The position numbers and the translations under genes were made by a program. DNA of 64,000 nucleotides from Rhizophagus irregularis (Eukaryota; Glomeromycota; Glomeromycetes; Glomerales; Glomeraceae): the NCBI RefSeq assembly GCF_026210795.1, contig NC_089441.1:3534001-3598000 (forward strand), in the 5' to 3' direction. Under the pieces are notes generated by a model that was not told the origin of the DNA, ran no database searches, and worked only from the letters and a program-made list of their open reading frames with translations. Positions 14,082 through 54,951 of this stretch are shown here, piece after piece; positions within the stretch are counted from its first letter, which is position 1, and each line of letters opens with the position of its first letter.

Positions 14082-15545
14082 TCATTGTTTTTTTTGTTTG
14101 ATGAAGTCTTCAAACATTTCTTCAACTTTTTCGATTCCAACCCAACCACATAATGGAGTATCACCAAGAACATATTGAGTACGTTTATTAAAAAATAGCA
14201 GTCCATCCGGTCGATATCCGAAAGAATGAGGATTTTTAATCAAGAATGATATTTTATCTTGATCACAATAATGAGCTTTGAGCGGATTGAACTTATAAGT
14301 TAAAGTGTTTGCAGTTGGACGTTCGATTTCTGTAAACTTTGTGTTGAGCCAATAAAATCTAAAAATTTTTCAAAAGGTTGACAATTAATAATGATCGTAA
14401 AAAAAGATTATGCAATTAGAGAAAAATAAAATGCACTAACCTGAATTCAGTATCACAATCGTAGATTGGATGTCCTTTCCAGCACATAAGATCCAATACA
14501 TAATAAGTAAATGTCGTTTGATCATAAATGCAGTCCAAGATACAATAATCAGTCGTTTTGTTTCCTTTGTATGAATTCGCTCCTGCAGGTAAGACAGACT
14601 CGAAAACATTCATGACATTTCCTGTTAAGTATTCAATATGTATAAAAAATAGTTGATTACATAAAATAATTTATATAAAAACATGAAATGCCTATATCCT
14701 ACCATTACGTAATCGGCTTACAGTTTTACCTTGAATCATTGAATCATAAAATATTAAACATTAATAATTTATTAAAAAAAAAAAAATTTTTTTTTCCAAA
14801 CAATATAATTACCTTTTGCTGATATTACAAGGCAACGCTTGCCTTTAGGACATAACACAACATACCAATTCTTCTCTAAATCAGATGGTATTTCTTGCAT
14901 CCATTCAGCATGCATTACTTGATTTCTGTATGGATTAGATCCTTTAATCTTGCGACGAGGTTCTCTAAACTTTCCTTTGATTCTTACTTTTTTAACTACA
15001 GATGATTCTTGTAGCAAACTATCATCTTGATCTATGTCCAAGCTGCGCTTAAGAGGTTTGGTTAGTTCAATTGGGGAATCATTATTTACTGATTCATCAT
15101 CGGACGCTGGCTCCTCTTCTGATGAAAAATTTTCCGGCTTGAATAGCGCTAGATTTCTCGCGTGGGTATTAAGATCTCGTCTTCTCTAGAAAAAAATGAA
15201 AAGAAAAGGTTTACCGCCATTCGTTAAAATATTCTAAATGGCACATTAACAATAAAAATGTCGTTTCACCTTTTTTTGTTCTTCTAATGCTCGCTTCCTT
15301 CGTTCTTCTTGTGTTTCAACTTTACCTTTTAATTGTAATGGTGAAGTTTTAAAGGACTTTTGGCGAAATACTCCTGTTGAAGGAGAAACTGAAGTAGCTG
15401 AAAGTAACTCGGTAACTTCGTCAACTGTCGCTGCAGGCTTCTTGACTTTCTCAGTTAATAGTTTGACCTCAAGAGCTGATTTTTGACTATTAGCTGTGAT
15501 GCTTCCATTATTTACTTGTTTATCTTCACACTTCTCGTTTGCCAT
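14082..15545 (-). CDS. SNUPN: Snurportin-1 (m3G-cap-dependent snRNP import adaptor)
   Basis: Five exons: 15545-15270, 15185-14813, 14729-14703, 14621-14441, 14358-14082, giving 377 residues with all junctions in phase. Snurportin binds the trimethyl-guanosine cap of spliceosomal snRNPs and links them to importin-beta for nuclear import. The N-terminal part has an importin-beta-binding-like basic segment (EERRKRALEEQKK, then RRRDLNTHAR). The cap-binding domain has WYVVLCPKGKRCLV, DYCILDCIYD, YYVLDLMCWKGHPIYDC and DGLLFFNKRTQY, followed by a conserved TPLCGW. The third exon is only 27 nt. The frame is open upstream to 15689, but the chosen ATG gives the usual protein length. Confidence 0.93.
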
Positions 15546-18104: not shown

Positions 18105-21100
18105 TTATAATTCTTCGTGTTTTGTTTTTGTTGTTGTCGATTGCTCTGGTTTTTTAGATTCGGTCATTGGTGTGGCAGTAGATTGACTAACGAACTCGGT
18201 AGTACTACTGCCTTCACTACTAGTACTTTGCTCATCAACCTTCGTCGTTTTGGTATCTGTTGTTTTTGCAATGATTTTAGGCTTCCTCGGTGGTTTCTTA
18301 GAAACCAAAATTAAAAATTCGCGTTCTATTTCATTTAATTTTTTATCAATATCAATAGTAACCAAAGAGGGATTAACATGAGGTGGTGTTTTTCCTTGCA
18401 GCTCCAATTTTTCATTAAGCCATTCTTCGACTTTTCCGCATACACTTAATAATTTGTCAAGTTCCTCATCTGTATGATATCGATTTTCGGCTGTAGTGTT
18501 GGTTTTAATCTCATCAACAAAATCACGAGTGCTATTGATAACAGCTTTGATTTTAAAAATTGCATTCGGAAGTTTTATGCGTTCTTCCCGTCTATATGCG
18601 ATAGGTTGCTCAAGTAATCTAAATCAAAGAAATAAAAGGTTTAAGTATTGTGATATTATTAAACCACAAATACGGCTAAATAAATTTTACAAACTTAAGG
18701 TTATTGAGACGTGTTTTAAATTCTACAGTTTGAGCTTCTTCGCCTTCTTCATATAACCAGTCAGATGTTTCAGATAACTTTGACGATAACTCAGCGCGTT
18801 GACTTTCCGTACTAACTTGTAATACTACTTCATTTTGAAGGAAATCTCGTACGCGATAAACAAAAGATTCTAAGTTATTTCTCGCTTCTTCGCGAGTTCG
18901 TCGTTGGAGATCAGAATTATCCATTGCACGTAGTCTAATAATAAATGGCAATTAATAAAAAAAATTAAAAGAAAAAAAAAGGTATTATAAAAGGAGATAT
19001 CTTTACCTTTTAATTGATTCATCCTTTTCATTTTTGCCCAAAGGCTTAATGCCAACGTATTCTACTTCAAGATTCAGATTTATCGTTTCTATTTTAGTTT
19101 GTTTTTGTGTAGGCTCGGTATCATTTGCCTGAGTTTTATTTGTTTCCAGTGTAGGTTCCGATGCGTTCACGGAAGAACTTGTTGTTTCCTAATATATAAT
19201 TATTTATTCCTTTATTAATTATTTGTATTTGGAGAAATTGAAGTTATGATGTAATCTGATTTTACTAACATCTGGCAATGGGACTTCTTTAATTGACTCT
19301 TCTGACTTGTTTCCATTAACACCAAAAAATGATTTGAACTTATCTATTATATGAAATTGTACCAGAAGGAAAAAATTAATTTCAGCTAACATGTTTTATA
19401 AATTATTAAAGCAATCCAAACTCACCTGTGAAAGATTGATGTTCTATAGTCGCTATTGCTTCTGTAGCAGAAACTATACCAGATTCAGATAATTGCAGAG
19501 TAACTTTAACTTTAGGGCGTTCTACACCAACATCATTAAATTGCTTAATGGCAGCAGTTAATCCAGTAATTTTTGTAATTGCAATATTTGTGGGCCCAAA
19601 ATCTTTCGTGACCTCATCTGGAATAGCGTAATTTAGCAAAAAATTGAAATCACTCGTACGTGGGAAACTCATTATTTTACGCGTTCCAACCGCAGTAAAT
19701 TGATTAAACAATACCGTATGGTATTCTTTAGATTTTGAAATACCTAAAAAACGCATCATTAGAAAACCAATGTGTTTCAAATAAAATTTAACCCATAAGT
19801 AACTTGGTTGTTACCATCTTCGGACTCTTTTGGCTCTGAGGAATGATTAACTTCGATGGGATAAGGAGTAATATCTTTAACTTTGATTTCCTTTACTTTA
19901 AATTGACGACTTAATCCAGCTCCTCTAAAGGCGGCACCTAACATAAAAAAAAGAACAGTTAATACAATTGATTATTACAGATATATATTCAGACATAAAT
20001 GACATAAATGACATCACGCACCAAGCACAGCAGCTTCATCACCATTCACGTTCTGAGCAATCTTATCCCTATAAACGTCATGTGATCATAAAATTAAAAT
20101 ACTTTATAAAAATCATAAAAACAGAACCTCAAAAGCACTTACTCTCCAACAATTTCCTTAAGTTTAGCTTGAATTGATGGAACACGAACTCCACCACCGA
20201 CCAATACGCAAGACTTAATGCTAGCCTATTATAAAAGTAGAGAAATTGCGTAAATAAATTTCAATAAAAGTATAAAAGTAATTTATAATGCAAATACGAG
20301 ACTTACTAAGGTCAACTTAGCATTATCCAAGGCCGCTTTAATAGGTCCACCGACGCGTTTTCTAAGATCAGCTGTCATATTTTCGAGATCACGTCTCGTT
20401 ATAGGTAGACGGAAGTCATGCTCTTCGTGTAAATTCTCTAACTGAAATATTAATATATGATTCAGATATCACGTACGCAGAAGCATTAATTAAAACAATT
20501 ATTTTAAACTTTTAAGATATTAACCGAAGCTATAGCATCTGTGTTGGCACTAAGGATTTGTTTTATTCTATTTGCTTCCTTATAAAGTCTTGTCATAGCA
20601 CGTTCCGATGTGAAAATAGATGATTTCAATTTCCCACTAAATTTTTTGTTAAATTCTTCCGCAAAATGTCTTTGGAGGCGAATATCAAATTCCTGACCGC
20701 CAAGAGATCGGTCATAACCGACTGATAACACATCAAGGTTGATAATTGTTTTGTTGAAGCGTCCTACGTCATTTACATTGGATGTTTTGAAACTTATCAA
20801 GCACGCCTTAGTACTTCCAGCACCCATATCATAAAACACGTGATATTGTGGTTCCTCCGTGAACGAATTATGATGAGAGATCGCATAATTCAATCCAACT
20901 AATTTAATTCATTTAATTCAGTAAAAATTATCAACATAAAATTATAAAATATAAAAAAAAGGGACACTTTTAAACGCACCTGCCGTAACATCATTAATCA
21001 AAGAAAGAACATGAAGGCCGGCAAGTTCAGCTGCATCTAAAATTGCTTGCCTTTCAAATTGGTTATAATATGAAGGCACCTAATACGTATAAATCGGTGA

Positions 21101-21769
21101 TTACAATACATGATTGTACATTTTAAACATATTATACATTGAAATATAAATACCGTGATTACAACATCTTTAATTGCTTCTTGTGCAGCTGCTTCGGCCT
21201 GTTCTTTGGCATGAGAAAATTGCATTGCAAGAATTTCTTCTGCCGTGAAAGTAGTAGTTTCATTATGTTGAAAAACGACCGTTCCTCGAATTGGATCCGG
21301 TATTATTTTATTTGGAAAAACTGACTGATAATCTTTTATGGATTGATCATCAACCAACCGACCAAGAACTTTTTTGATACTAAAATAAGTATTAAGTGGA
21401 AACCGTGCACCCTAAATTCATCAATTCAACAATTCAATTATCTATGGATCAATGATTAAATTGCAATATCTTACAATAAATGATCACGATTAAATATTAT
21501 ATTCTTTCGTTAAAATACCCAATTTCATTCTCACTCACAAGATTAACGGCATCTGAACCATAAATTCTTTCTTCACCACGTATTGTCAAAGCTGATTGGG
21601 TTTTGCGCTTAGAATCCCTATTCAACACTATATCAAGAGGTATTCCCGGCTTTACGAGTGCAACCTTAAACCAATCAGTTCCGTAATCAATCGCAATTAC
21701 GGCAGCCTCAATCAATGATAGCGCAAATAGCGCTATCAAAGTAATTAGTACTAAAAAATAGTATTTCAT
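18105..21769 (-). CDS. LHS1: ER Hsp70-family nucleotide exchange chaperone (LHS1/GRP170/HYOU1)
   Basis: Thirteen exons: 21769-21539, 21411-21154, 21079-20980, 20898-20525, 20441-20307, 20225-20143, 20068-20022, 19937-19815, 19743-19426, 19343-19270, 19188-19007, 18934-18695, 18618-18105. They give 892 residues, all in phase. An N-terminal signal peptide ([20 protein letters not shown]) is followed by a divergent Hsp70 ATPase domain: [16 protein letters not shown], then [20 protein letters not shown] and [13 protein letters not shown]. An acidic or Ser/Thr-rich linker and an extended helical C-terminus follow. It ends TKHEEL, a plausible ER-retrieval signal of the K/HDEL class. The family acts as a nucleotide exchange factor for BiP/Kar2 and as a holdase in the ER lumen. 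A TATA box lies about 40 bp upstream. Confidence 0.93.
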
Positions 21770-22949: not shown

Positions 22950-24434
22950 TTAAGCAACTTGTGCTGTTCGGTGATCAATCGTTTCGGGAACAAAGAATTT
23001 AGTCCCTTCTCGTTTGACTTTTTCAGAACGAATTTGATCAATGAACTCGTCAAAGAGAAATTCTGTGTCCTCTGGTCCTCCCTTAGCTTCTGGATGAAAT
23101 TGAACACTTCTGTACGGAAGGGTCTTGTGGATAATACCCTCGTTTGACCCGTCATTAACATTAACGTAGTATTTTTTCCAAGATGGGGGAAACTTGTCAT
23201 CAACAAGCGCATAACCATGATTTTGAGAAGTAATTTGGCACTTGCCATTCACCATGTTTAATGCTGGAACATTATGTGCACGATTCCCGAATCGAAGCTT
23301 TCGGACGTCAAGTCCAGCTGCCATTCCCATCAATAAATTTCCCATACAAATACCAAACATTGGCCGTTTGTATGAATTCATGGCCTTGCGAAGATTTGAA
23401 ACAGTTTCCATTGCTTTCATCGGATTTCCGGGACCATTTGAAATAAAGATTCCATCGAATTGATCAGAGATCTTATTAAAGTCAAAATTCCATGGCAAAA
23501 CTGTGACGGCCGCGCCGCGTTTAACTAAACTTCGTAGAATGTTGTGTTTGACACCACAGTCTATTTAAAAAAAACAAACATTACATTAAATTTAAATTTC
23601 GAAAAATTGGAAAAAATTAAGGAAAAATAAATAAATACTAACCAACGACGGCGATCTTGATGTCGCCATAGGGATTATAAGAGACGGGAACAGCCGTACT
23701 AACTTCAGAAACAAGATTTCTAGTGTTAGGATCAGTGTATGGAATTTTGTTGAAATTCTCATTCGCCGCATCGTCACCGACGATCAATTTTGAGAGGGTT
23801 GATCCTTGATCCCTAAGAATATGGACGATTGCCCGAGTGTCAACACCTGTAATTGCAGGAACGCCGTGTCTTGAGCACCATTCACCTAAAGATTCCACTG
23901 CCGTCCAATGTGAATAGCGTGTTGCATAGTCGTTGACGACTATAGCTTCACACTGTATGCGATCAGACTCGAAATATTTAAGGAGTCCGTACTGGTCCTT
24001 AAAAAGCCCTGGGACACCATAATTTCCTAAAAATGAAAAGGATTAGCTTTTTGAGAATTGTTCTATAGAAACAAGAATAACAAGAACATACCAATTAATG
24101 GTTGGGTGAACACCAAGATTTGACCACGATAAGAAGGATCAGTCATTGATTCAGGATACCCTACAACAGAAGTTGTGAAGACGATTTCCCCGGAAACGGG
24201 AATATTGGCTCCAAAGGAAGTACCGTGAAAAACTTCACCGGACCGGAGTTTTAAAGCCGCCTTAGGCGGCTTAGTATTGACGTTAGCATAAGGAGCTGGC
24301 GGAGGGCTGGAAATAGTAAACGGCTTGTCTGAGACCGTCGCAAGCCCGCACTTCTGTAATGAAGTGATAAAGAGTGCTTTTGTGATGGAAATTGAGGAGG
24401 GATTGACGAAAGAACGTCTAAGCAACAAAGACAT
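22950..24434 (-). CDS. CPA1: Arginine-specific carbamoyl-phosphate synthetase small (glutaminase) subunit
   Basis: Three exons: 24434-24092, 24026-23643, 23560-22950, giving 445 residues. The enzyme hydrolyses glutamine and passes ammonia to the large subunit to make carbamoyl phosphate for arginine synthesis. Residues 1-35 look like a mitochondrial presequence (Arg/Ser-rich, no acid residues early on). The CPSase small-chain domain follows ([51 protein letters not shown]). A class I glutamine amidotransferase domain comes last, with the nucleophile in FGIC near residue 314 and the His/Glu pair in [11 protein letters not shown]. Oddly, the motif after the nucleophile reads [10 protein letters not shown] rather than the usual GxCxGHQ. 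The leader carries an attenuator-type uORF and the promoter a Gcn4-type site, as expected for this gene. Confidence 0.95.
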
Positions 24435-24580
24435 TGTAAAGTATTTGTTTTAAAGAAAAAGGGATTATTGCAAATGGGAATGGAAATATGGTACAGTGTA
24501 ATATATGTATTTTTATTATATTATTTATTATTTAAAAAAGAAGCACAAAAATAAAGAGTATGGTTTTTTTAGGCGAGGGT

Positions 24581-24724
24581 TTAAAATTCTGTTGATGACG
24601 ACTTCCAAACTATGATAGAAGAATAAAAGGTTAATTTTCGTATGAAGAGTAAGAGATTATTAGAACAAAATAATTTACCTTGTATATCTATGTAATCGGC
24701 CGATGTGCTTTTATTATAACTCAT
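24581..24724 (-). CDS. Arginine attenuator peptide (AAP) upstream ORF of CPA1, split by an intron
   Basis: Exons 24724-24679 and 24609-24581 encode 24 residues plus stop. The intron is 24678-24610, starting GTAAAT and ending ATAG. The peptide contains DYI at residues 10-12 and WK at 17-18. Fungal AAPs, encoded upstream of CPA1/arg-2, have DY(I/L)SDH(I/L)W(K/R) with the same Asp-to-Trp spacing. The length of 24 residues equals that of the Neurospora AAP. Known AAPs stall the ribosome at their own stop codon when arginine is abundant and lower CPA1 translation. No other ATG lies between this stop and the CPA1 start (146 nt). Identification rests on position, length and core motif. The residues between DYI and W differ from the classical SDH, so activity is inferred. 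Confidence 0.85.
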   Translation of the reverse strand: MSYNKSTSADYIDIQGKLFCSNNLLLFIRKLTFYSSIIVWKSSSTEF

Positions 24725-24780
24725 CAATATGTTGAAAAAAAAGAAGAGTTTGAAGACTGAAAATGAAGAGTTGGTTCCTC

Positions 24781-24837: not shown

Positions 24838-24844
24838 TGAGTCA
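24838..24844 (-). promoter_or_regulatory. Gcn4/CPC1-type site of CPA1
   Basis: TGAGTCA, a perfect TGASTCA match (the site reads TGACTCA on the other strand), 50 bp upstream of the TATA box. Gcn4/CPC1 activates CPA1/arg-2 under amino-acid starvation in other fungi. Confidence 0.6.
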
Positions 24845-41189: not shown

Positions 41190-43360
41190 AAAGTTCAAGA
41201 ATATGCAAGCTTTTATAATTTTCAAATACGAAAAGAAAAGTAAAGAGAACAATATTAGAAAAAGAACAATTGTATGCTCGCGTGCGGGTATTGCCAGACA
41301 AAAAGATGAGAATATTAATTCAAGAGATCGGCAATCTCAGAGATGTGATTGTCCTTTCCTTATTAGAGCGTCGCTCAACTCACAAACTGGCGTTTGGCAT
41401 ATTTTGGCCATGAAATTAGATCATAGTCATGAAATGGTTAATCCTGAGCACAAAAAATTTCTTCATAACGAAAGGATAATTCCACAGGATATTAAGGATC
41501 GTATTGAAATTTATCATCATGCCAGTTGTAGCGTCCCAACAATTAGATCTATCCTTAAACAAGAATACCAAGGATTAGAGTCATGGATTTATAATGACAT
41601 TTATAATTTTGTATATAAATTAGATGGTAAATTACAACAGCGTTTCTTTGAAGCAAATGAATTTATCAATACTTTAAACAGCTCAAAAGGGAGATAGATG
41701 GATTTGAATATGAAACGAGAATTGATGAAAGTACAAATGAACTTCAAGTAATATGGATGTATCCTGAACAAAAACAATATTGTAGATTTTTAGATGTTGT
41801 TTTCGATAATACATACAAGGTTAATCGATTCAATATGCCATTTGGAATCTTCACGGGAGTAAACAATTTTGGGCAAAGTATATGCTTTGCTGGAACGTTA
41901 ATGTGCCAAGAAACAATTGATAGTTTCACATGGACATTTAAATTATTTCTTAAAATGGTTAATAATCATCCACCAAAAGTAATACTTACCGATGAGGTTA
42001 AAGCAATTTCTCAGGCAATACAAAATAATTTTGGTAATAGTAAACATGTATTATGATGTGGTATCTTCGAAAAAATGTGATTAAAAATTTAAGTGGTACA
42101 TTAGGAGCGCATTGGCATGATTTCACAAAAGCCTTTTATGAGTGTATAAAAGAATATAAAGTTGATAATTTTATGATTAAATGGCAACAACTTAAAGAAG
42201 AAAAATGGGCGTCCCGCTATAATAGAGATATATTTTTAGTAGATATGACCAGTACACAACGTGGAGAGTCCTCATGAAGGGTTATATGGATTCTACTAAT
42301 TCACTTTTAGATTTTCTAAAAGCCTTTGAATCAGCATTGGAGCAACGTAATTCTGATTTACAATTAGTTAAATATTGTCAGAATCATTTAAATGTTATAT
42401 TAAAAACATTGAGTCCGTACAAATATCAGGTAGCGGAAGTATTGACGAATTATGCATTAAAATTAACACAAGAACAGTTATTACAATCTACTGTTTATTC
42501 TTGTGTTGAATTAGTTGAGTTAAGGTATTTTAAATTACTATTTATTTATCATCATTTCTATAAATTAAAATGTAAAGTAATATATAATTTATATAATTAA
42601 ATCCTTTATATTTTATTAGAAGTCAAAATGGCCAATTTTTTCATATTCATCGAATATGAATCTGGAAGAAAAGTTCAATATGATAATCATCATCAATTAT
42701 TTTTGTGTTCGTGTAAGCATACAACCTTTTCGATTAGCGTCACAACAGTGTCACAACTTAATTTAACTAGATTGCCAGATTCATGATTTTATAAACGATG
42801 GCGAAGGATCCAAATAATCTTGTCTTAATTCATTTTGTAATGGTAATCCAGCAATAAATGATTTTAATAATTCTGAAGTGGAAATTTCTGAAGATTATGA
42901 ATATTTGTTATCCAAAACTTTATATGAAATAAAAAGTTTGGTAAAAAAATATCCAGAATCATCAATACATTATTGGAAAATAATTGAAGATAATTCATAA
43001 TCAAACAAAAAGTATCAACACGTTAAAAAACATAATTAATAATCCCTCCAAAAATAATAATTCAAAAAGAAAAGGTATTTATTTATATTTTCAATTTATT
43101 AATTATCATTATTACTAGTATAATTTATTTATGTTCATTTAAGAAATTTTTTTTTAGAAAAAAACAAAAATCAACAAATACTTTAAATAAAAAACAAAAA
43201 GTGTCAATTACTGATAGTAGTGGCTTATCAATACAAGAGAAAGAGAATACAACAAGTTATCAGCAGGGAAATAATGAAAATACATTTAATGCACCTAGCC
43301 CAATACGTCGAGCATTTCAGAATTTACCACAAATCTCTGTAACAGAATTAATGGACTGAT
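41190..43360 (+). pseudogene. Decayed FAR1/MULE transposase gene
   Basis: A FAR1-type DNA-binding segment (KRTIVCSRAGIARQKDEN, CDCPFLIRASLN, LDHSHEMVNPEHKKFL) occupies 41203-41690. The MULE transposase core follows in a shifted frame: DVVFDNTYKVNRFNMPFGIF, then VILTDEVKAISQAI and LRKNVIKNLSGTLGAHW. After 42600 only scattered pieces of the SWIM zinc finger and tail remain. At least three frame changes (about 41680, 42055, 42270) and later stops break it. FAR1-type MULEs belong to the Mutator superfamily. No terminal inverted repeats were found around it, so the element's ends are unknown. Confidence 0.8.
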
Positions 43361-52600: not shown

Positions 52601-54409
52601 GAATCTACTGAATAATAAAGTTCATTCAGATTAGAGTCATTTAAGTATTTGAAGATCGGATTTTTTTTAATTATAAATTTTGGTGTAAATTTTCGATTCT
52701 CTATTTTTGGAATTGGCTGTTCAATTGCATTCTAATAATATAATATGTAATGTAATTAATATAAAATTAAATTTAATAATTTTCATTATTTATAATTTTG
52801 ATAAATACCATTAAAATTTTGTTACTATTTAACTTCATACATTTTTTACAAATTCTTCCTTTATTTGTTGTTGTAATTTTACATTTTACACTTCGAATAC
52901 AATTAGAATTAAAATCGTTGCGCCATTTTGCCCTTGCAACTAACTCATTCTCTAATTTGATTTTTTCATTATTTGTCAACTTTTTCCAACTAAAATTTTT
53001 GTCAAATTTTATTGGAAATAATTCTTTTGCCAATACTTCAACACGTGGTGCACCACCATAATGTATAATTCCACCAATTCTTTGTAAATACTCTAAGTGC
53101 TTCTCGTCTCTCAATCCAATACATGAAATTTGGTGAGATTTTGTAGAATTTACAAAATAACTTGTGAGTGGACGTATTCTTTACTGTTAATAAACAGTTA
53201 CTAGTTTTACTATGTTTTTCTAAATTTCTTGAATTATAAGCTCGATGCAATCTGATTATCTTTCCACATTTACATTGAACTTCATTGCGAGTAATAATCT
53301 TATTAACTTTCGGATGATTTTGTAATCTTTTATCCTAATTAATAAAAAAAAATTGAATAATTATTAGCATCATAAATTAACTATGAATAGATTAATTATC
53401 TTGAATTCTGATACTTACTTTAATATGATCAAGTTTCGTTATTCGCTTTTGACTATTTTGCGTTTGCTTTTTCCTAACATTTTTTTCATTATTAGTAGTA
53501 TACGATGATGATGATGATGATTCACCATCATTATCATCAACATTTGAGTTAAATTCCACTATATCAGAACCATCACTCATACATTTTTCTGATTCAAGAA
53601 TATTGAAAGGTATATTTTCATTTTCATCAGATTGAACATCACGCATTTCAATATCAATATTTTGATCGAGTGAAGGTGGTGAATTTCTTTTGAAGATTGG
53701 AACAAAATGATCTGTTTGTGGTAAAGGATCGTTAATATTCCACTTTCCACTTGATGGTGTCACATTATCGTAATAGGTTATCATAAGCTTTAATTCGTGG
53801 TTCAATTAATTTATTATACAATGAACTAATTAGTTGAGAAACAGTTGGAGGATATATTAACATTATCGGTCTTTGAATTACTGATGCTAAGCCATATAAT
53901 CCGATAATTGAACAAAACTGATGTGGCTTAGATATATAAGCAATTTCACCAATATATTCTCTTTCTTTATTATATGTAGTCGGCATATCTGAATTTTTGG
54001 CTGAATTTAAAGCTATATCGGAAAAATAATAATCTTGTTCAAAAATTTTTTGACTAAGATAAAAATTTGAAAATTTCATCAATTCTACAACCATAGCTAG
54101 TCTAAATTGTAATACTAACATTTGGTTTGCATTAAAAATTAGAGATATAGAATTTAATAAACAATCTCCATTAGAAAATACAGCTGCAGAAGTTAAATGT
54201 GGATATTGCAAATGGAGGATTTTTTCAGCAGTATTATCAATATTGGTTAATGGAGGAAGAGTTTCGTGAGGAGTGTCAAAAGTAATAGAAAAGATACCGG
54301 ATATATTAATAGTTGAAACATAATCTTGAACAGAATGAATATTAGGAGGTGGAGTTGTAGAGAGAAATTTATTAATGTTTAAAAGTTGTTCAAGATTTTT
54401 ACTATTCAT
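49699..54409 (-). pseudogene. Transposon gene(s): OTU-like peptidase, zinc finger and DDE-type transposase regions
   Basis: Starting at 54409, the first ORF carries an OTU-like nucleophile motif, SNGDCLLNSISLIF (Cys at residue 83). The OTU-type His motif TDHFVPI lies in the next ORF near 53715, after a change of frame around 53790. An acidic Ser-rich linker follows, then a zinc-finger-like CKCGKIIR...LEKHSKTSNC (about 53270-53190). The transposase region has MTDNTKLKERLS (52160), then IISFGSDGAANEFNSQSM (51770) and CPVFPNIGPIIRIQD with GTGTARYDQ (51650-51520). Further on are CEHFFGLSQ (50920, followed by a stop) and AHDSALNLNPNK...NAPGKILG (50140-49990). NPANHGGYAF is near 49880. At least three breaks; probable introns were not modelled. 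The two Asp motifs fit an RNase-H-fold transposase. Confidence 0.6.
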
Positions 54410-54951
54410 TTTGTGTTGATATTGATATATAATAACGTAAAAGATAAAGTTAAGACGCGTATGTGTCTTAACATTTTAAAAGTAATAAATGGTAAAACAT
54501 ATTGAATTCCTGGTAAGTTTATCATGGATAATATAAAGTAAATTTGATAAATTTATTACATTGTGGTAAATTTATCACAAAGTAAAAGATGGATTTTTCT
54601 CGTTTGCTATTTATATAATTATATTGAAAATTGATGTAACACTGCATATGATAATCCTAAAATATACGCTTTTATTAGAAAATTACATGTGACCTTAAAA
54701 TTTTATCTAAAATTATATACTTTTTTTACTGTGACCTAATTTGGTGGTACTCTATTTTGGCATGTAACATTTTCTTAAAATACCCGTTTTTTCATATGAC
54801 CTTTCCATTAAAAACGCAAAATTATATACTTTTTTTGCATATGACCTTTATTATAATTATCCGGGGTCCTACTGGGGTAGTTATGTAATATCACGTGATA
54901 CTGAATTTTGACGGTTTTTATATCACGTGATAAGTTATTACACTAATATCT

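Follow-up and report, generated by a model that had tools for sequence, protein, structure and literature searches.

The window, i.e. the whole stretch of 64 kb that was analysed, carries on its minus strand a gene of three exons with a spliced reading of 445 aa, the domains of which mark it as the glutamine-hydrolysing small subunit of carbamoyl-phosphate synthase (CPS). The whole protein scores 422.5 bits against TIGR01368 (cut-off 307.35), its pieces carry the Pfam domains of the CPSase small chain and of GATase (PF00988, PF00117), and among PDB entries it matches mitochondrial carbamoyl-phosphate synthase (ammonia) with 1.7e-105 and stand-alone small chains with about 1e-57. The reading frame terminates at 22950 without a large subunit, as would a stand-alone small subunit; the gene had rightly been named CPA1 in the preliminary description of this DNA. 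About 55 residues precede the first domain and could be a mitochondrial presequence; the enzyme would be the arginine-specific one.

Several other genes were noted in the window. An Hsp70-family gene at 18105-21769 (minus strand) has 12 short introns, with PF00012 found in one exon-containing frame; its spliced reading of 897 aa has a hydrophobic N-terminus and only the final stop, and we take it to resemble an ER chaperone of the GRP170/LHS1 type. A minus-strand frame at 31745-32140 matches the N-terminal domain of resolvases (PF00239, 29.7 bits) and resembles a serine recombinase of the IS607 type. On the plus strand, a FAR1 DNA-binding domain frame (41191-41697) is followed by two more open frames; together (41191-42600) the three may represent a broken-up transposase of the MULE/FAR1 type. 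The minus strand further holds a Snurportin-1 m3G-cap-binding domain (PF21974) at 14772-15185 and, at 53765-54475, a match to the OTU-like cysteine proteases which stays under the Pfam cut-off (20.4 vs 23.3 bits). Rfam at gathering thresholds gave no match in the window, and ARAGORN found no tRNA in it.

In front of CPA1 and on the same strand lies an ATG-initiated uORF. The sequence under study has a GC content of 28%; this value, the short introns of the region and the FAR1 and weak OTU matches would agree with the early-diverging fungus supposed in the preliminary description, but are no proof of it. Read without splicing, this uORF consists of 47 codons plus a stop, giving 47 aa. If the GT..AG stretch 24678..24610 (69 nt) is taken out, 75 nt remain, with 24 codons for the peptide MSYNKSTSADYIDIQVWKSSSTEF. 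The uORF had previously been described as one of 24 codons on the minus strand; its ATG and TAA are indeed present, but this length tacitly presumes an intron that went unmentioned, since the direct reading gives 47 aa. The distance of 146 nt from its stop to the CPA1 start was given correctly. The spliced peptide contains D10, Y11 and I12 followed by W17 and K18, with W at +7 relative to D, and no Arg codon; its tail of 7 residues after W and its total of 24 residues both apply only if splicing takes place. The coordinates of all features are collected in the table.

Table. Features of the CPA1 locus and its leader (positions within the window)
Feature	Positions	Strand	Remarks
TGACTCA	24838..24844	.	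upstream of the TATA-like box
TATA-like box TATATAAA	24781..24788	-	56 nt separate the box from the uORF ATG
uORF, whole frame	24724..24581	-	ATG at 24724, TAA ending at 24581
uORF exon 1 (predicted)	24679..24724	-	first 15 codons MSYNKSTSADYIDIQ and first base of the next codon
uORF intron (predicted)	24610..24678	-	69 nt (GTAAAT...ATCATAG), splits the peptide core; best of 13 leader GT..AG pairs
uORF exon 2 (predicted)	24581..24609	-	remainder of the V codon, WKSSSTEF, TAA stop
Spacer, uORF stop to CPA1 start	24435..24580	-	146 nt, AUG-free
CPA1 exon 1	24092..24434	-	start codon begins at 24434; PF00988
CPA1 exon 2	23643..24026	-	part of the spliced 445-aa reading
CPA1 exon 3, glutamine amidotransferase domain	22950..23560	-	PF00117; stop codon ends at 22950
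CPA1 introns	24091..24027 and 23642..23561	-	

Asp, Tyr, Leu/Ile and Trp at a fixed spacing are the core requirements of an arginine attenuator peptide (AAP). Alignment of the spliced peptide with the known AAPs of yeast and Neurospora shows the correctly spaced core D-Y-[IL]-x3-[ILV]-W-[KR]. The core TSADYIDIQVWK is identical to that of yeast at 6 of 12 positions, to that of Neurospora at 5 and to either of them at 7, the yeast and Neurospora cores sharing 8 of 12 with each other. The alignment bears out two statements made earlier, namely that SDH is replaced by DIQ and, conditional on the predicted splice, that DYI and WK are separated by the distance known from yeast and Neurospora.

To score this likeness, ATG-initiated peptides of 12–60 aa, read either directly or after removal of a single GT..AG intron of 45–150 nt, were compared with the 12-residue yeast/Neurospora AAP core (BLOSUM62 averages); both the scoring scheme and the intron range were fixed after the candidate was known. 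The candidate scores 35 and the known AAPs, which themselves define the matrix, 65.5 and 63, whereas the unspliced 47-aa reading has no AAP core and scores 13. The candidate stands far above shuffled sequence. A score of 35 was reached in none of 4000 dinucleotide shuffles of the 347-nt leader from TATA-like box to ATG (maximum 24), and 1000 shuffles of the upstream 1 kb went no higher than 27. The strict motif DY[ILVM]x3[ILVM]W[KR] was likewise absent from all 4000 leader shuffles and all 1000 shuffles of the 1-kb region, and the looser DY[ILVM]x4W occurred in none of the former and in 2 of the latter. In addition, the uORF peptide ranks first among 16,951 peptides from both strands of the 64-kb window, many of them overlapping, with 35 vs 27 for the next. 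When its own residues were shuffled, 20 of 200,000 orders scored at least 35 (maximum 42.5).

The Pfam family of these peptides, Leader_CPA1 (PF08252), was not reported for the uORF peptide at E values up to 10, nor was any other family, and the same search gave 58.8 bits for the yeast AAP and 56 bits for the Neurospora AAP. Similarly, phmmer found no match to the uORF peptide in PDB, and the yeast AAP recovered the Neurospora AAP there (PDB 2xl1). With the members of Leader_CPA1 the candidate shares its place before the gene of the CPS small subunit and, if spliced, the fixed spacing of D, Y, I and W; it lacks the PF08252 match and the SDH between DY[IL] and [IL]W, and because of these two points we class it as an AAP-like uORF outside the described family by the Pfam test. 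A uORF of the TgApiAT1 type lies in the leader of an arginine transporter gene, and the main ORF here is CPA1. What had been proposed as a divergent variant of the attenuator peptide is upheld by the position before CPA1, the core spacing, the single AUG of the leader and the shuffle controls; the proposal was, however, silent about the intron and concerns a peptide to which PF08252 is blind.

Such divergence might mean that the uORF descends from an AAP but has ceased to sense arginine, DIQ and the longer tail leaving it with a merely constitutive damping of CPA1 translation. The silence of PF08252, the alteration of three adjacent core residues and the presence of 7 instead of 5 residues past W would all suit a lost response, but D, Y, I, W and K stand at their exact spacing despite the divergence elsewhere, a pattern suggestive of continued selection on these residues, and we consider a loss of sensing unlikely.

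The 69-nt stretch that separates DYIDIQ from VWK within the core is, judged by its splice signals, a putative intron. Local splice matrices were built from 14 coding introns of two neighbouring genes, 2 from CPA1 and 12 from the Hsp70-like gene. With these matrices the stretch ranks first among the 13 possible GT..AG pairs of 45–150 nt in the leader (8.89 vs 5.61 for the next), and its length falls inside the local range of 65–127 nt. Its donor score of 4.8 is lower than that of 10 of the 14 local introns and its acceptor score of 4.09 lower than that of 12 of them (each local intron being left out for its own score), and of the dinucleotides on the same strand, 12% of the GT and 16% of the AG score as well. 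The putative intron has a length of 3n and zero in-frame stops. Five of the 14 neighbouring coding introns are also 3n in length, with 3 stops in each, and one (74 nt) is free of stops but not 3n, so that both properties coincide in none of them.

An intron that is both 3n and stop-free implies either a continuous uORF of 47 codons, with an AAP likeness that is coincidental, or an intron that can be retained and translated. If the leader were never spliced, repression of CPA1 would come from the 47-aa frame with no attenuator peptide involved, the likeness across the junction being due to chance. This would account for the combination of length and openness that the neighbouring introns lack and for a donor and an acceptor weaker than most of theirs, but the likeness appears exactly at the top-scoring splice pair of the leader, and the 4000 shuffles without such a likeness had all GT..AG pairs of 45–150 nt permitted. 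We therefore regard the unspliced alternative as very unlikely. As the shuffle results speak against coincidence, splicing of the uORF is favoured, and retention of the intron is kept as a possibility.

The AUG of the uORF is the sole AUG in the 346 nt between the TATA-like box and the CPA1 ATG. Of 2548 overlapping tiles of this length from the window, coding regions among them, 3.4% contain at most one ATG, as do 2.2% of the 1625 tiles whose GC is similar. Position -3 is occupied by T at the uORF ATG and by A at the CPA1 ATG, which fits leaky scanning. We take TATATAAA to be a TATA-like motif and the TGACTCA further upstream to be a site of the Gcn4/CPC1 type. Since their frequency in the window is near expectation (4 seen vs 2.8 expected for TATATAAAG; 6 seen vs 5.3 expected for TGASTCA), both motifs count by their position and not by their rarity, and TGACTCA as a promoter site is weak support. 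An RNA attenuator was also considered for the leader, but is not favoured because the predicted fold of 24435-24750 shows no excess stability over shuffles (z 0.44; 64 of 100 shuffles at least as stable). That the uORF is a functionless product of chance, perhaps even outside the transcript, seems hardly credible, for although its presence in the transcript is itself a prediction, short ATG frames are frequent (4 kb hold 33 of 20 aa or more, counting both strands) and the promoter motifs show no enrichment, such a reading is opposed by the shuffle and whole-window controls, by the position of its ATG as the only one in an ATG-poor stretch after the TATA-like box and by the adjoining CPA1, the gene which AAPs control.

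Taken as a whole, these features make it likely that the uORF is a divergent arginine attenuator peptide uORF. It would probably work like the known AAPs, a mechanism which we propose on the basis of the shared anatomy, i.e. position, core residues, spacing, weak start, a single uORF and the lack of Arg codons. The transcript would begin somewhere from about 24780 to 24730, and splicing would excise the 69-nt intron from its leader. Scanning ribosomes may frequently bypass the weak AUG of the uORF and reach CPA1, and those that translate the uORF would produce the nascent attenuator peptide. At high arginine this peptide would stall the ribosome on the uORF stop or close to it, scanning would be blocked and synthesis of CPA1 would fall; in addition, the stalled uORF may open the mRNA to nonsense-mediated decay.

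According to PMC7969011, ribosomes translating a known AAP stall at the uORF stop when arginine is high, reducing synthesis of the CPS small subunit, and the D13N exchange destroys the response of the yeast AAP. A second arm of AAP control, decay of the mRNA, is described in PMC7049704 and PMC11550727. The AAP is listed among the peptides able to halt elongation as well as termination (PMC6624018), and shifting its stop N-terminally is stated to lead to premature termination arrest (PMC13183943). Although that shift runs opposite to the longer tail seen here, these accounts suggest that a longer tail need not abolish arrest, as both elongation and termination can be arrested and a shifted stop still permits it. 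If the distance between the core and the peptidyl-transferase centre is fixed, the ribosome would halt about two codons ahead of the stop, the tail having 7 residues instead of 5.

The position of the putative intron allows a further and rather doubtful idea, in which splicing gates the arginine sensor. Splicing would yield the arginine-sensing 24-mer and retention a 47-mer that ends at the same stop and has no core, so that CPA1 could be toggled at the RNA level between arginine-responsive and unresponsive repression, in a lineage which would have no need for SDH and where arrest would occur before the stop codon.

Relatives of the locus were sought in viral contigs and genome contigs. A degenerate DNA pattern of a stretch of CPA1, which is blind to relatives that differ there, had no match in the viral contigs or in the genome contigs scanned, and a search with 362 aa of CPA1 found no relative in the viral contigs. 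An exon-1 pattern matched one viral contig (L001, 64% GC), which was judged to be a chance match as the best tblastn E value for CPA1 was 0.53, and six genome contigs, namely Pontibacter, Sphingobacterium, two Bacteroidales, one Bacteroidetes and Colidextribacter. No fungal relative was present in the scans of viral and genome contigs that were made. Fungal AAPs have reportedly been surveyed by Hood (2007) and Spevak (2010). A literature search for 'arginine attenuator' gave no title on early-diverging fungi among the matches listed, and we make no claim to a first report of AAPs outside Dikarya or of introns in AAP uORFs.

The AAP is a model of how eukaryotic ribosomes are arrested by the nascent chain acting jointly with a small molecule. 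A natural variant with D-Y-I and W-K but not SDH would help to sort the residues needed for sensing and arrest from those that merely accompany them, and might in this way reveal which AAP residues are dispensable. If the fungus is an early-diverging one, the variant could also bear on whether AAP control predates Dikarya, and an intron that splits the core and is translatable when retained would add a possible switch at the RNA level.

Compared with the AAPs of S. cerevisiae CPA1 and N. crassa arg-2, the candidate is likewise a uORF before the gene of the CPS small subunit, and its predicted spliced form would have 24 residues, against 24–25 in these AAPs. If spliced, it shares with both of them D-Y-[IL] and hydrophobic-W-[KR] at equal spacing as well as T three residues before D, and with Neurospora also S two before D. 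A weak start context is found here as in the yeast CPA1 uORF, whose context PMC7969011 calls inefficient. Unlike both, it has DIQ for SDH, A for the Q preceding D, a tail of 7 residues past W where they have 5 and a putative 3n intron through the core, and PF08252 fails to recognise it. CPA1 orthologues, including that of Cryptococcus, are stated in PMC7049704 to have a conserved AAP uORF. The Cryptococcus one (CND01050) resembles the candidate in being the uORF of a CPA1 orthologue, a comparison made on the description of that uORF, and is reported there to show strong ribosome occupancy, a repressed main ORF and an mRNA that is raised in an NMD mutant. A more distant case is the uORF of ApiAT1 in Toxoplasma gondii, which differs from the candidate in that it governs an arginine transporter and belongs to an apicomplexan; as described in PMC8370653, it is arginine-responsive, has 33 residues that are partly AAP-like and include an essential Asp, and its peptide can partly be replaced by the yeast AAP. 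By analogy, the ApiAT1 uORF may serve as a precedent for a peptide that is more distant from the known AAPs and has the same kind of response.
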